This document shows, piece by piece, positions 19,682 through 57,179 of a DNA stretch of 64,000 nucleotides. Position 1 is the first letter of the stretch. Every line of letters starts with the position of its first letter. Both the position numbers and the translations under genes were made by a program. This stretch comes from Parabacteroides goldsteinii (GTDB lineage Bacteria; Bacteroidota; Bacteroidia; Bacteroidales; Tannerellaceae): contig NZ_JADNBB010000015.1 in the NCBI RefSeq assembly GCF_015550595.1, positions 62,001 through 126,000 of the forward strand. Direction: 5' to 3'. The notes under the pieces were generated by a model that saw only the letters and a program-made list of their open reading frames with translations, searched no databases and was not told the DNA's origin.

Positions 19682-19927
19682 GAACAAAGATTAGTTCGGC
19701 ATGTATTCCCCTTTACCCCACAGGTGATTGTCGGCAGATGCCGGATCGTTTAAATTGCCTCCGTAGTAGTAGCCGACAGATGGCTGGAAAGAGAGAAAAG
19801 AACCTGCTTTTCAGGTGAATTTTGGGGGAAGTTTGAAAATCGGTGAATCGGGTGTTCGTAAGGTGCTGGAAATGAGATATCAAAAAAATACATATATAAG
19901 ATGTACGCGGGTACATTATATATAAGG

Positions 19928-19949
19928 AAAAGTGATTTAAATTACTTTT
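19928..19949. repeat. 22-base near-perfect palindrome
   Basis: AAAAGTGATTTAAATTACTT plus two T form a dyad with one mismatched pair, centred at 19938/19939, 26 bases before the left arm of the promoter inverted repeat. It could be a regulator or recombinase accessory site; function unknown. Confidence 0.6.
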
Positions 19950-19974
19950 ATGGTGAGTATTACGAACAAATCGG

Positions 19975-20007
19975 AATGACTAGAAATAACGTTCCTTTTT
20001 TCTAGTC
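19975..20007 (+). repeat. Left arm of promoter inverted repeat
   Basis: 33-base arm that matches the reverse complement of 20141-20173 at 30 of 33 positions. The inner 20 bases (19988-20007, beginning AACGTTCC and ending CTAGTC) are identical. Each arm also has GACTAG at one end and CTAGTC at the other, so each is itself a small dyad, as expected of a recombinase site. Confidence 0.9.
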
Positions 20008-20140
20008 TACAAATTTAGATATAAGTTTTGTTTCTGCAATCATTTTGTAAAAATATTTTCCCTCTCTATATGCTTTCTTATCAACCGAATAGCAAAGTTT
20101 GTACGAAATAGGGCGTTCTGGCCACGAACCCGGAAAGAAT
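20008..20140. promoter_or_regulatory. Putative invertible promoter segment (phase switch), OFF orientation
   Basis: The 133 bases between the two 33-base arms hold one clear Bacteroidetes promoter, which points leftward, away from the large surface-protein gene at 20238. No exact TAnnTTTG is present on the plus strand of the segment. If the segment were inverted, the -7 box would fall at about 20131-20138, with a leader of roughly 90 bases before the ATG. This is how promoter inversion controls surface polysaccharides in Bacteroides and, as reported, S-layer glycoproteins in Parabacteroides distasonis. That this segment inverts is inference. No recombinase gene is in the window. Confidence 0.7.
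20010..20039 (-). promoter_or_regulatory. Promoter reading leftward inside the inverted repeat
   Basis: On the minus strand: TTG (20039-20037), 19 bases, then TAAATTTG (20017-20010), an exact -7 match at about the usual spacing from a -33 TTG. In the present orientation it would send transcripts through the left arm towards 19975 and the intergenic DNA, where no gene is antisense-ready. Confidence 0.65.
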
Positions 20141-20173
20141 GACTAGAAAAAAGGAACGTTTTAGCTAGTCATT
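20141..20173 (+). repeat. Right arm of promoter inverted repeat
   Basis: 33-base inverted partner of 19975-20007 with three mismatches, all in a four-base stretch near the outer end of the arm. It ends 64 bases before the ATG of the large surface-protein gene. Confidence 0.9.
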
Positions 20174-20237
20174 ACAGCTATAGAACGTGTACAAAGAAGT
20201 TTTCATTAACATTAGTATTAATATTAAATTTAGAATT

Positions 20238-23200
20238 ATGAACAAAAAGTTTTCTACGCTTGTTGCCAGCGTCCTGCTGGCGGGTGCCGTTGGAACTGTG
20301 GGTGCTGTTGTTCCTTACAACAGTTATGTGAAGAGTGTCGGTGTCGGTACTCAGGCAGAAACAGTTGTTAATGGTGTGTCCTATCAATTGACTTCAGGCG
20401 CTAATGTTCTGGTTATGCAGGAACAGAGCAATGGTACTATGGCATTAAAGATGGTTGCTGCTGATGAAGCAGACTTGATGTCTTCTTTATGGACGATTGT
20501 ATCTGAAGATGATGGTGAAGGTGGTGTTTCTTATACATTCATCAACAAAGCAACAGGTCTTCCTCTTGCATTCGATACAAAAGATGCAAAATTAGGTGGT
20601 ACAAATGCTACAAATGCAATGGGTAATATTTCTTTGTGGAAATGGAGAACTGGTACTTCTGTCAAAGGTGCTAAAGATTTAGTGTCTTATTTCCATAAGG
20701 ACTCTGCTTTGGTTTTGGAAAATAACGGTGGAGCGATTTCTGCAAAGAAAGTGTATGCAAAGACAATAACTCCTTCAAGTTCTTTTACTGTTGATGCATA
20801 TCAGGCAGAGGAAGTCGTATTAGGGGTAGATGCATTGAACTCTATGTTGGGTATCCAGCCGACAGATGGCAAGATGAAATTAGGTTTCACTCGTGATCAG
20901 TTGAATGGTGTTGAGAACATTTGGTTGAAAGAGTACACAGCAGTAACGGCTCTTGGTGAAAGTGTTGTAGCTAAAGCTGCGCAAGCTGCTGCTCAAGCTG
21001 CAAAGAATGTAAATACTCCTTCTGGAGTTGCAGATGCCATTATTGCAACAATTACTCCTAGCTATACAGCTGCTCAAAAAGAGATTGTATATACAATCGC
21101 AACAGAGGCTGCTAAAGGAAGTACAGTTGCTGAAGCAAAAACCAAAGCTACTACTGCTGTTGGTAAATATACTTCAGCTCAAACTGCAGCGACTCATGAA
21201 TATGATTATGCAGTGCTGCAACAGACTGCTATTAACGCTTTAACTGCTGCAACTTATGCTGAATTTGTTGATGCTGTGGATGGAGCTTCTGTTACAACAG
21301 CTTCTTTGAAAAATGATGCAAAAGGCTTAGTTGCAGAAGCCGGTTATAGCTTGACTGCTGCAAAAACGGCTATCCAAGGAATGGAAGATGAATATGTTGC
21401 AAAAAAAACTAGTGCAGATCAAAAGAAGGCTATCAGAGATTTGATTGATGCTGAGATTGATAAGGCTGCTAGTGCTAACTATGGTGATTTTATCGTAGCT
21501 CTCAAGGCAATTAATTTGCCCGCGGTGGATCAAACTATATTTAATGATTTAAAAGCTAAAATTGTCTCTGTCGAGGAAGCTGCTTGTAACGGTGGAGGTG
21601 GTACGTTTGATCTTACTACTGCTAAAACTGCAGCAAAAACTACATTAGCAGATTATGATGCTGCAGCAGCAGCGGCTGCTTCTAATCTGACAGATGTTCA
21701 GGCAATTAATACTAAAGTTAAAGCATTGACTGGCGTTAATTCAAAAGCTGATTACGATGCTGCTGTAGAAGCAGTTACCGTAGGTGCTTCATCTGCTACA
21801 ACCGACGAAATGAAGGCAGTTCAAAAGGCTATGAAAGCATTGGTTGCTGGTCCTGGTTTTGTAAAACCAACGCCTGAAGCAGTTTTAGCTGTAGTTCGTT
21901 CTTTTGAAGATGCTAAGTTGGCTGCAACAGGAGCAAATACAATTGCAACAACTGTAGGTTCTGCAGTTTCTAGCTATAATGGTGATAAAGCACAGGTTCT
22001 TGCCGCTATTGATGCAACAAAACAATCTTATTATTCTACAGAAGAAAATGATGCTGTAACAGCTATTCATGATGCTGCTAATGCAAAAACAGCTGTGGCT
22101 GAAGTTATTGATGCTGCTGTAGAAAAAGCTGCTGAATATGTTGGTGCTTCTGCTGATTATGTATCTTTGGCTTCAAATATCAATAAAACAGATGCAAGCA
22201 AGACTACATATCTGCGTGTAGATACTACTTATTTGACAACTGTATCTTCTGATAAGTATCAGTTGGCATTTGCTGTCGGTACATTTAATTCTGCATTGAA
22301 AAACTCTAAAAAACAGTTGGTTGATGCACGTTTACAAGAAGACTTCAATGGTCGTTATAGCTTCAAGTTCACTTATTATCCTACTCAGGATTCTTTGATG
22401 ATTGAACCGGCTTCTTACATTTATCCATTTACTGACAAAGCATATGCTGATATAACTAATACAGAAGTTGCAACAGCTAAAGCTAAACCGGAATATGCTG
22501 GTCAGCAGGTTAAATTGGCTATTTTGGCTAAGGATCACCGTGAAGTGACAGTAGGTGTAGCTGATAAAACGAACACATCTACATCTGCTACAACTATCAA
22601 CACTCGTATCTACTTGGGTGGAAATTCAAACTACGAACGTACAACTTTGGCTTCCGGTGTTTATTTCTTCAATCTGGTAACAGATCTGAAATCAAGAATA
22701 GATGACAATGGTAAATATCGTGTAGCTACTTATTGTGGTGATAACTGGAAAGCTTATGAAAACGAAGAAACAACTCAGCGTTTTGGTAAAGCTCAGGACT
22801 TCAATCACATGCCACGTACTCAGTGGGTTGTTGAACAGAACGAAGGCGTAGCTGGAATTCAGACTGTAACTATCACAAACCGTGAATTTGGTGTTCGTTA
22901 TAATAATGTCCAATTGTACAAAGCTGGTGACAATGTATTTGCTCAGGTAGGTGCATTTGCTAATACTTCTGTAATTGATACATTGGCTTATACTAAGGTT
23001 GCTGACAAATATACATCAGACAAATACCTTGGTTACAAGAAGTTTGAAAAAGCATTAGACTACGAAAAATTCTACAACTTGGATTATCTGTCAGGTATGG
23101 AATTGGGTAACTATGTAAGCTTCAAGGGTGACTCTTCTGTTTATGTAGACCTGAAGGGTGGTAAGACATTCATCGAATTTGTTCCTGCTTCTGAAGATAC

Positions 23201-24635
23201 TGAATTCGGTTATGCAAGCACAAAAGCAGGTGCTGTACAGCTTTATAAAGCAGCTTATGCACTGCGTGTTCATAACGAAACATTGTTGACTACTGGTAGT
23301 TATTATGTAACAGTTGGTAAAGATGGTAAATCTTATGTAATCACTCACGAAACTAGCGGTATTACTCCTTCTTACTTTGTTCTGAAAGAAAATAACGAAT
23401 TGGTTTCTGAAGAAGGTGACACTACTTGTTACTATGCATTGCAGCAAGTTTCACGTTATGTAGACGATAAGAAATTCTATGTAAATAGCGACTGGAATCG
23501 TGTAGGTGTACGTGACGCTTCAATGGCATTTACTGTAGAAGAATCTTGTTATTTCACTCCTGAAAAACGTATCGCTACTTTCGCTGTAGTTGAAGATAAC
23601 ACTCCGTTGTATCGTCGTCTGGGCGTATCAAAGGCTGATGATGGCTTCCTGGATATGACAGTTCAGAACGGTAAGATCTATACAGTAAACAGTGCTGCTA
23701 AAGAATATCTGTATGAAGATGCAACAAGCAAATATTCAGCAGGTAAGAATATTAACTTCCTGGGTCTTGAAGGTAAGGGTGTAGATGCTAAATCAGCGAT
23801 GTTCGTTGATACAGCTTATGTACGTGGAAACACTAACATGCCTCAGTATATGCTAGTAATGAATCCGCAGATTGTTAAGGCTGATACAGTTTGGTGTAAC
23901 GCTACATCAACTCACAAACATGCTACATTGGCAGACTCTCTGGCTTGTCCTCACACAACTATTACTCCGGCTAGCATCACAGGTCGTTACCTGATCAATG
24001 CAGAAGACTCTGTTGCTGCTGGTGATAATAATTATGTATGGAATACTAAGTACACTCGTTTGGCATTTGTAGATGCTAAACATATCGGTGATACATTGGT
24101 GATCTTCCGTAATGGTAAAGCTAGCACTGCTGCAAAAGACTCTATCTTCTTAGGTAATAATGACCATAACAAGGTAACAACAGCAAGACCTAACGGTATT
24201 AAGAATCCGGTATTCGCATTCCGTTTGGTTAATGCAGATGCTTGTGACTTCTTGATCGAATCAGCAGGTGATCATAAGATCCCGTCAGATGGAACAGGTA
24301 AATGGGTTGCTATTAAGAATGGTGTTCCTGTTGTAGCTGCAATGGAAACTTATACAGATGCTATCCGTGACGCTGAAATCTTCAACATCGAACCGACTGA
24401 AGAATTCGCAACATCTAATGAAGGTGTCTCAACATCTGAAGTTTCAGTAATTGCTGGTAACGGAATCGTAACTATCAAGGGTGCTGCCGGTAAGACTGTT
24501 GCTATCAGCAACGTTCTTGGTCAGACAATCGCTAACACAGTTCTTTCTTCTGACAACGCAGAAATCGCTGCTCCTGCTGGTGTAGTTGTAGTTGCTGTGG
24601 AAGGTGAAGCTGCTGTTAAAGCAATCGTAAAATAA
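20238..24635 (+). CDS. Large secreted S-layer-like surface protein, DUF6383-type C-terminus
   Basis: 1,465 residues from the ATG at 20238; an upstream GTG at 20187 is less likely because the signal peptide (MNKKFSTLVASVLLAGAVG) starts here. Residues 30-230 look like a beta-rich N-terminal domain. About 235-680 is very rich in Ala, Thr, Lys and Asp and predicted helical, with loosely repeated KTAAKT and DYDAAVEAV-like pieces. The rest, to about 1390, is beta-rich. The last 70 residues (GNGIVTIKGAAGKTVAISN, then NVLGQ, then APAGVVVVAVEG, ending AIVK) form a DUF6383-like domain that resembles type IX sorting domains. The codons are strongly biased (GCT, GGT, GTA, AAA), unlike its neighbours, which suggests very high expression. 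S-layer identity is inferred. Confidence 0.82.
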   Translation: MNKKFSTLVASVLLAGAVGTVGAVVPYNSYVKSVGVGTQAETVVNGVSYQLTSGANVLVMQEQSNGTMALKMVAADEADLMSSLWTIVSEDDGEGGVSYTFINKATGLPLAFDTKDAKLGGTNATNAMGNISLWKWRTGTSVKGAKDLVSYFHKDSALVLENNGGAISAKKVYAKTITPSSSFTVDAYQAEEVVLGVDALNSMLGIQPTDGKMKLGFTRDQLNGVENIWLKEYTAVTALGESVVAKAAQAAAQAAKNVNTPSGVADAIIATITPSYTAAQKEIVYTIATEAAKGSTVAEAKTKATTAVGKYTSAQTAATHEYDYAVLQQTAINALTAATYAEFVDAVDGASVTTASLKNDAKGLVAEAGYSLTAAKTAIQGMEDEYVAKKTSADQKKAIRDLIDAEIDKAASANYGDFIVALKAINLPAVDQTIFNDLKAKIVSVEEAACNGGGGTFDLTTAKTAAKTTLADYDAAAAAAASNLTDVQAINTKVKALTGVNSKADYDAAVEAVTVGASSATTDEMKAVQKAMKALVAGPGFVKPTPEAVLAVVRSFEDAKLAATGANTIATTVGSAVSSYNGDKAQVLAAIDATKQSYYSTEENDAVTAIHDAANAKTAVAEVIDAAVEKAAEYVGASADYVSLASNINKTDASKTTYLRVDTTYLTTVSSDKYQLAFAVGTFNSALKNSKKQLVDARLQEDFNGRYSFKFTYYPTQDSLMIEPASYIYPFTDKAYADITNTEVATAKAKPEYAGQQVKLAILAKDHREVTVGVADKTNTSTSATTINTRIYLGGNSNYERTTLASGVYFFNLVTDLKSRIDDNGKYRVATYCGDNWKAYENEETTQRFGKAQDFNHMPRTQWVVEQNEGVAGIQTVTITNREFGVRYNNVQLYKAGDNVFAQVGAFANTSVIDTLAYTKVADKYTSDKYLGYKKFEKALDYEKFYNLDYLSGMELGNYVSFKGDSSVYVDLKGGKTFIEFVPASEDTEFGYASTKAGAVQLYKAAYALRVHNETLLTTGSYYVTVGKDGKSYVITHETSGITPSYFVLKENNELVSEEGDTTCYYALQQVSRYVDDKKFYVNSDWNRVGVRDASMAFTVEESCYFTPEKRIATFAVVEDNTPLYRRLGVSKADDGFLDMTVQNGKIYTVNSAAKEYLYEDATSKYSAGKNINFLGLEGKGVDAKSAMFVDTAYVRGNTNMPQYMLVMNPQIVKADTVWCNATSTHKHATLADSLACPHTTITPASITGRYLINAEDSVAAGDNNYVWNTKYTRLAFVDAKHIGDTLVIFRNGKASTAAKDSIFLGNNDHNKVTTARPNGIKNPVFAFRLVNADACDFLIESAGDHKIPSDGTGKWVAIKNGVPVVAAMETYTDAIRDAEIFNIEPTEEFATSNEGVSTSEVSVIAGNGIVTIKGAAGKTVAISNVLGQTIANTVLSSDNAEIAAPAGVVVVAVEGEAAVKAIVK

Positions 24636-57008: not shown

Positions 57009-57179
57009 TTACAGGTTTATTTGCCGTCTGCTTCAGCTGACGGATTGGTAAAAGCTCTATATCTATGGACTTTAGTCCCATTGCTTACAGGTCTCAATCT
57101 AAGAGAAATGTGGCTAAAGCCAAGAAAAAGACAGCCTATCAAAACCGTCAGCTGAAGCAGACGGCAAATAAACCTGTAA
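57009..57179. repeat. Dispersed hairpin element, copy 2
   Basis: 171 bases with perfect 35-base terminal inverted repeats (57009-57043, 57145-57179; TTACAGGTTTATTTGCCGTC... read inward). Inside are the dyads GGACTTTAGTCC (57067-57078) and TGGCTAAAGCCA (57111-57122). Compared with copy 1 at 32809-32982 it is in the opposite orientation. No ORF. The rest of the 317-base gap is plain AT-rich DNA. Confidence 0.88.

Follow-up and report, generated by a model that had tools for sequence, protein, structure and literature searches.

In Campylobacter fetus, the sap genes form an S-layer gene family whose members have conserved ends and exchange coding sequence behind one fixed promoter. Within the genus Parabacteroides, inverting promoters before an S-layer glycoprotein gene of P. 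distasonis are on record (PMC8400631, in the portion available, citing Fletcher et al. 2007). In Bacteroides fragilis, a single global serine invertase, Mpi, acts on many distant capsule promoters (PMC4747536, PMC8375218, both available in part). Bacteroides thetaiotaomicron has phase-variable S-layer lipoproteins whose promoters lie between inverted repeats (PMC12118408, in the part available to us).

Here we describe a 199-bp element in a 64,000-nt stretch of Parabacteroides goldsteinii DNA (the window) that is very probably an invertible promoter cassette, or inverton, belonging to a large family that controls DUF6383 surface-type genes. As with the phase-variable glycoproteins of P. distasonis in the available text, a family of surface proteins lies behind inverting promoters. 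The B. fragilis Mpi promoters resemble the cassettes described here in having a similar core, ARACGTTCGTN, and a TAnnTTTG promoter (PMC4747536, PMC8375218, as far as the text at hand goes). Unlike in that system, most of the targets that we read are giant DUF6383 proteins, one family member is apparently locked ON, and the copies have an upstream element in common. The S-layer repeat of B. thetaiotaomicron, CCGTTACCTABVRAGTAAC, differs from the arms reported here and adjoins site-specific integrase genes (PMC12118408, in the same part).

Results

An inverted-repeat cassette before a giant DUF6383 gene

The initial annotation of the window described two 33-base inverted repeats, 30 of 33 bases identical, with identical inner 20-mers and 133 bases between them, just upstream of a 1,465-residue protein. 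The coordinates and counts were reproduced in full (Table 1): the complementarity of the arms is 30/33 (91%), and the ATG at 20238 lies 64 nt past the right arm. Each arm is also an imperfect palindrome in itself, with arms of 15 and 12 nt and 6 nt between them. In eight Markov-1 random 64-kb windows, there was no pair matching at 30/33 or better with a spacing of 100-230 nt, compared to two pairs in the real window, the switch arms and one other at about 57.0 kb. The inner 20-mer, allowing up to three mismatches, has two matches in the window versus a mean of 0.01 in 100 shuffles. The pair at 57 kb (57009-57046 and 57142-57179; 38 nt, 97%, 95 nt apart) is intergenic and unrelated in sequence to the switch arms; it is possibly a MITE or REP element.

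Table 1 Features of the switch locus and its gene (positions in the window).
Feature	Position	Strand	Remark
Left arm	19975..20007	+	30-bp putative recombination site 19978-20007, central dinucleotide TT
Probable invertible segment, 133 nt	20008..20140	none	From cassette alignment
Bacteroidetes promoter TTG-N19-TAAATTTG	20010..20039	-	No other full match on either strand of the segment
Conserved element GTAC-N16-TTGATAAGAAAG, upstream of promoter	20073..20104	-	Also in arm-less ON members
Right arm	20141..20173	+	30-bp putative site 20141-20170
Leader, right arm to start codon	20174..20237	+	60 nt before ATG identical in G037
DUF6383 giant protein, 1,465 aa, signal-peptide-like start	20238..24635	+	
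ORF start, identical to G037; 5' exchange boundary	20238..20286	+	Homology ends abruptly
DUF6383 module, residues 1391-1464	24408..24629	+	G037 homology resumes at about 24447, the 3' exchange boundary

The promoter pattern used in the scan, TTG-N19-TAnnTTTG, matches 15 times on the two strands of the window, so that about 0.05 matches would be expected in 199 bp. The match inside the segment is directed away from the DUF6383 gene, meaning that the switch is OFF in the assembly. The proposal of a phase-variable promoter before a surface-type protein is supported by the one full promoter between the arms, together with the cassette family and the orthologous loci described below, with the correction that the assembled orientation is the silent one. 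Judging from the layout of the segment, its inversion would place the -7 box of the promoter beside the right arm.

The product of the gene is 94% identical over its length to a P. goldsteinii protein and 97% identical to a P. chongii protein. We infer that it may be an S-layer protein. Comparison with PDB entries yielded no convincing relatives (best E 0.12). DUF6383 as a T9SS sorting domain (type A) is no more than a hint; Por_Secre_tail is seen weakly in 6 of 7 C-termini, at 10.6-14.4 bits versus a cut-off of 23. SprA is present in the genome. Farther along, at about 24.8-31.5 kb, the window carries sigma factor, FecR, SusC and SusD-type genes between the DUF6383 gene and a phosphoesterase-like gene; the equivalent interval in P. 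gordonii is only about 0.7 kb, which points to a likely insertion here or loss there.

A family of cassettes, nearly all OFF

The genome that holds the window (G000; 6.5 Mb in 85 contigs) contains many further copies of the arm, which the initial annotation had suggested looking for: the inner arm was found at 50 places with up to three mismatches, compared to 3 for the reversed control. Viral contigs gave no exact match to the inner 20-mer. DUF6383 (PF19910) has 24 matches in G000. Twenty are strong, scoring at least 97 bits within long open frames; of the other four, two are weak and two are pieces that lie at the start of a contig. Paired arms lie upstream of the start in 16 of the 20 strong genes, namely the window gene and 15 others, and all 16 cassettes are OFF. 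From locus to locus, entire cassettes resemble one another at about 68-77% and retain the promoter and the element.

Related arms also flank segments in the vicinity of other genes, among them SusC-type and capsule-type ones (types assigned by eye from the ORFs), which suggests that a single invertase serves several surface systems. Same-family arms near SusC-type and capsule-type genes are found at L216, L217, L218 and L219. At another locus (L201:4668-5048, C11:119k of G000), three arms, two direct and one inverted, precede one DUF6383 gene. Two contigs of G000, C56 and C77, end 2 and 45 nt beyond an arm, possibly because the assembly broke at a flipping or repeated site.

We then took a census of orientations in six Parabacteroides genomes: G000, its close relative G037, P. 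gordonii (G009), G012, G014 and G004. The census used DUF6383 matches with 85 bits or more together with their upstream DNA, which was covered for 20/20, 24/24, 27/27, 10/11, 8/10 and 11/11 genes, respectively. Orientation was scored in two ways, by the promoter and by the conserved element. Sixty-one switches were paired by arm consensus and a core filter, and 17 more, which have listed arms (L273 in G009) or inverted repeats of 18-24/24, were added through element scoring. The numbers of OFF and ON copies are 16/0 in G000, 17/1 in G037, 20/0 in G009, 8/0 in G012, 6/1 in G014 and 9/0 in G004, or 76 OFF and 2 ON among 78 switches, counted as assembly orientations rather than reads. Such a ratio would fit mutual exclusion and a low ON rate alike.

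A conserved element upstream of the promoter

The sequence TTGATAAGAAAG with GTAC upstream is common to the aligned cassettes (61 plus three arm-less copies), although a few copies deviate. Searching with GTAC-N14-18-TTGATAAGAAAG, we found exact matches in 18 of 38 genomes, including 9 in G000, 13 in G037, 11 in G009 and 8 each in G012 and G014; in these five genomes, where positions were read, all matches lie at DUF6383 loci by position. The gap is 16 nt in every match listed, with 14-18 permitted. The exact element is absent from 20 of the 38 genomes, including G004, whose copies differ by one or two bases. The reversed pattern served as a control and gave one match in G005 and none in the other genomes. 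Because arm-less ON copies (described below) retain the element, its role is probably in transcription and not in recombination, and its presence in switchable and locked copies suggests a common regulator.

The candidate recombinase

The arms fit a serine invertase of the Mpi type, acting in trans, better than a tyrosine recombinase. In all 61 arm pairs (of the 78 switches), which had been pre-filtered for at least 12/14 core agreement, the two arms have the same central dinucleotide, compared to 0.47 and 0.68 expected between loci. Mismatches within pairs occur at core position 13 in 15% and at position 18 in about 5%. Identity within pairs is therefore absolute only at the two central bases, as expected from a serine invertase with its two-base overlap. 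In 25 of the 61 pairs the central dinucleotide is self-complementary (AT or TA), which should weaken directionality; how the invertase would keep its direction is then puzzling.

The available part of PMC8375218 gives the Mpi inverted-repeat consensus as ARACGTTCGTN; the right arm of the window differs from it at 1 and the left arm at 2 of the 10 specified bases, and the arm at C33:241104 matches in full. G000 encodes an Mpi-family invertase at C3:53776-54378 (NF009949, 323 bits, cut-off 272) as well as two Mpi-like paralogues that fall below the cut-off at about 180 bits each. Across 38 genomes, a DNA match to window positions 19890-20260, in many cases limited to the leader or to a portion of the cassette, occurs together with an Mpi over the cut-off in 30; 3 have the DNA only, 1 (G010) has Mpi only and 4 have neither (Fisher p 0.002, ignoring kinship and genome completeness). 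In the DNA-only genomes (G021, G027 and G029), the Mpi matches are fragmented or below the cut-off.

A lone arm-like site (L402:1412-1441, profile score 23.4) lies 89 nt before the ATG of the Mpi-family gene in G000, G037 and G009. Among the other 27 mpi loci (one of them mis-framed), nine have their best profile hit, scoring between 0 and -21, within a related block located at -88 to -91, and the remainder have no such block; a good score is seen in only 3 of the 30 mpi loci read. The lone site may be an operator resembling a recombination site, through which Mpi would limit itself.

It is unlikely that a tyrosine recombinase of the Tsr type performs the inversion instead of Mpi. There is precedent in the source texts, as far as these were available, for promoter inversion by Tsr enzymes in B. 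fragilis and for a tyrosine recombinase gene at the capsule loci of P. distasonis (PMC8400631); in addition, three tyrosine recombinases of G000 have 74-83% identical partners in G012 (L068, L072 and L084). However, the mismatches at positions 13 and 18 clash with a 6-8 bp overlap, and the arm core resembles the Mpi consensus. The initial annotation had also proposed searching for a tyrosine recombinase near copies of the arm, and this search came back empty: no arm (up to six or up to five mismatches) accompanies any of the 48 PF00589 matches of G000 in the stretches read around them (about 1.5-4 kb per side, less at contig ends), where the sole arm lies before a serine recombinase, L227. The Mpi-type serine invertase is the likelier enzyme.

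Opposite orientations at orthologous loci

The two ON copies can each be compared with an orthologous copy that is OFF. The locus C4:158k is OFF in G000 and in P. gordonii and ON in G037 (L253). Between G037 and G000, the inner segment matches at 49/150 positions when read directly and at 127/133 as the reverse complement, and the flanks match in the same direction (138/151 and 138/141). The second pair consists of L284 in G012, which is OFF, and L294 in G014, which is ON; here, the inner segment matches at 60/205 directly and 123/153 as the reverse complement, the left flank matches at 111/151, and the right flank is identical over its first 100 nt and matches at 237/343 as a whole. The presence, in a sister species, of an OFF ortholog for each ON copy indicates that cassettes of the DUF6383-switch family flip.

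In each of the three species compared (G000, G037 and P. gordonii), the switch at the window locus itself is OFF, so that inversion of the window's own copy is something we infer rather than observe. Comparison with related genomes, as the initial annotation had advised, thus revealed the inverse orientation at two other orthologous loci but not at this one. The OFF state in three species and the 76 OFF copies among 78 would also suit a relic, in which the arms persist but the segment has ceased to flip and the gene stays silent. This is very unlikely given the two ON copies elsewhere, each orthologous to an OFF copy, and given the conservation of the window cassette in G037, where the arms match at 28/30 and 30/30 and the inner segment at 128/133.

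Arm-less ON copies and exchange of ORF bodies

In all six genomes, exactly one family member among the genes read has the promoter module of the switches in the ON orientation and no arms: C22:160k in G000, L235 in G037, L263 in G009, L289 in G012, L295 in G014 and L303 in G004. These copies have 15-16/16 of the element in the ON orientation and the full promoter; their best inverted match, 15-16/24, is at the level of copies without arms. With an ON promoter module and no arms, they are apparently locked ON, and by this arrangement they are presumably expressed. G000, G037 and G009 each have another arm-less gene, with a 14/16 variant of the element, also ON, and no full promoter match.

Alignment of G000 with G037 revealed abrupt boundaries within the genes. 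At the window locus, the two genomes have an identical stretch of 108 nt that begins 60 nt upstream of the ATG and ends 48 nt past it, after which there is no similarity; homology returns about 190 nt before the stop codon and extends over some 370 nt. On the left, the flank is about 95% identical over 5 kb, and the right flank beyond the block of about 370 nt is unshared. At the locked locus, where the genomes are 94% identical upstream and 91% downstream over kilobases, the match continues across the promoter, breaks off about 20 nt inside the ORF and resumes in the last 200 nt, with no match for the body between these boundaries (blastn, E 1e-5). The locked loci of G012 and G014 have similar boundaries, 24 nt and the last 360 nt, with three short matches (67-103 nt) between. 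At C4:7k, one flank is 95% identical over 6.5 kb and the other is 87% identical over 6.2 kb, and the 3 kb from ATG+32 to the last 155 nt contain no match of at least 150 nt at E 1e-20.

Whole units are also found at different places. The C84:41k unit of G000, which starts at its left arm and ends about 200 nt beyond the stop codon, has a counterpart with 95.8% identity over 3,562 nt at a different locus of G037, one that has the left flank of C84:62k; the flanks of C84:41k itself lie in G037 on both sides of a different body. Comparing the bodies of the 20 G000 genes with 21 of the 24 G037 genes, we called 6 as kept (70-94% amino acid identity) and 6 as replaced, with 8 receiving no call; 3 of the replaced bodies have both flanks in common and 3 the left flank only (the window gene, C19:57k and C84:62k). 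A relocation of the C84:164k body was considered and rejected; the locus is syntenic and the body kept. The 3.3 kb upstream of C22:12k resemble a duplicate of the C84:164k region.

Among protein relatives of the window gene product, the P. chongii protein matches its body at 1335/1364 and has another DUF6383 module (57/79); in P0001, the module is identical (79/79) and the body more distant (1030/1364). These comparisons between species show, at the level of sequence, that the ORF body, lying between a conserved 5' end and the DUF6383 module at the 3' end, has undergone exchange during evolution, probably by homologous recombination. There is no close donor within G000 for its ON body, the best G000 paralogue being 34% identical; exchange with other strains and conversion from silent copies are therefore equally likely.

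Could the bodies simply have diverged rapidly in place, with no replacement? The family is indeed diverse: the best paralogue of a body within G000 is 24-57% identical and two bodies have none, some loci retain bodies at only 70% (C4:158k), and the ON bodies of P. gordonii and G000 are distant relatives, with a few short stretches of DNA in common and 37% protein identity over 960 aa. Even so, divergence in place is highly improbable in view of the 108 identical nt followed by no similarity at the window locus, the conserved flanks around an unmatched 3 kb at C4:7k, the cassette-plus-ORF unit of C84:41k at a different G037 locus, and the P. chongii protein, in which body and module differ so much in their likeness to the window protein.

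Discussion

We conclude that the 199-bp element is very probably an inverton of the DUF6383 family. In the mechanism that we propose, an Mpi-family serine invertase encoded elsewhere in the genome would recombine the two arms at their identical central dinucleotide. The flip would aim the promoter at the DUF6383 gene, and a few cells of the population would then make the protein of this gene. A second layer would be provided by the one arm-less member per genome (among those read), whose promoter module appears fixed in the ON orientation. That the inverted repeat is instead the end of a small transposable element (MITE), which the initial annotation had named among the findings that would refute its proposal, draws on the many dispersed arm copies but is extremely improbable, with sixteen paired copies at the equivalent position before DUF6383 genes, promoter and element retained in cassettes only about 68-77% alike, no target-site duplication visible by eye in the flanks of the window switch, and two orthologous flips.

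More tentatively, the two layers may together form a system of surface variation in which switchable genes are combined with an arm-less ON expression site whose body is replaced. In the first tier, each of the six genomes read would have 7-20 switchable genes, almost all of them OFF and flipped by one Mpi-type invertase. The second would be the permanently ON site, with recombination replacing the body from the conserved signal-peptide codons up to the DUF6383 end; in this way, the default coat could change while expression is retained.

The sap system of C. fetus has one promoter, whereas most copies here have an invertible promoter of their own. Promoter inversion is known, and the architecture with a locked copy and body exchange is a new variant; among the open-licence titles and beginnings of abstracts listed, none deals, for Parabacteroides, with switches of DUF6383 genes, with a locked copy or with exchanged bodies, which is weak evidence of absence. 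The coats of Parabacteroides face phages, antibodies and host tissue. If the proposed arrangement is true, a default ON site with exchangeable bodies together with a mostly silent repertoire would keep the surface covered and yet variable.
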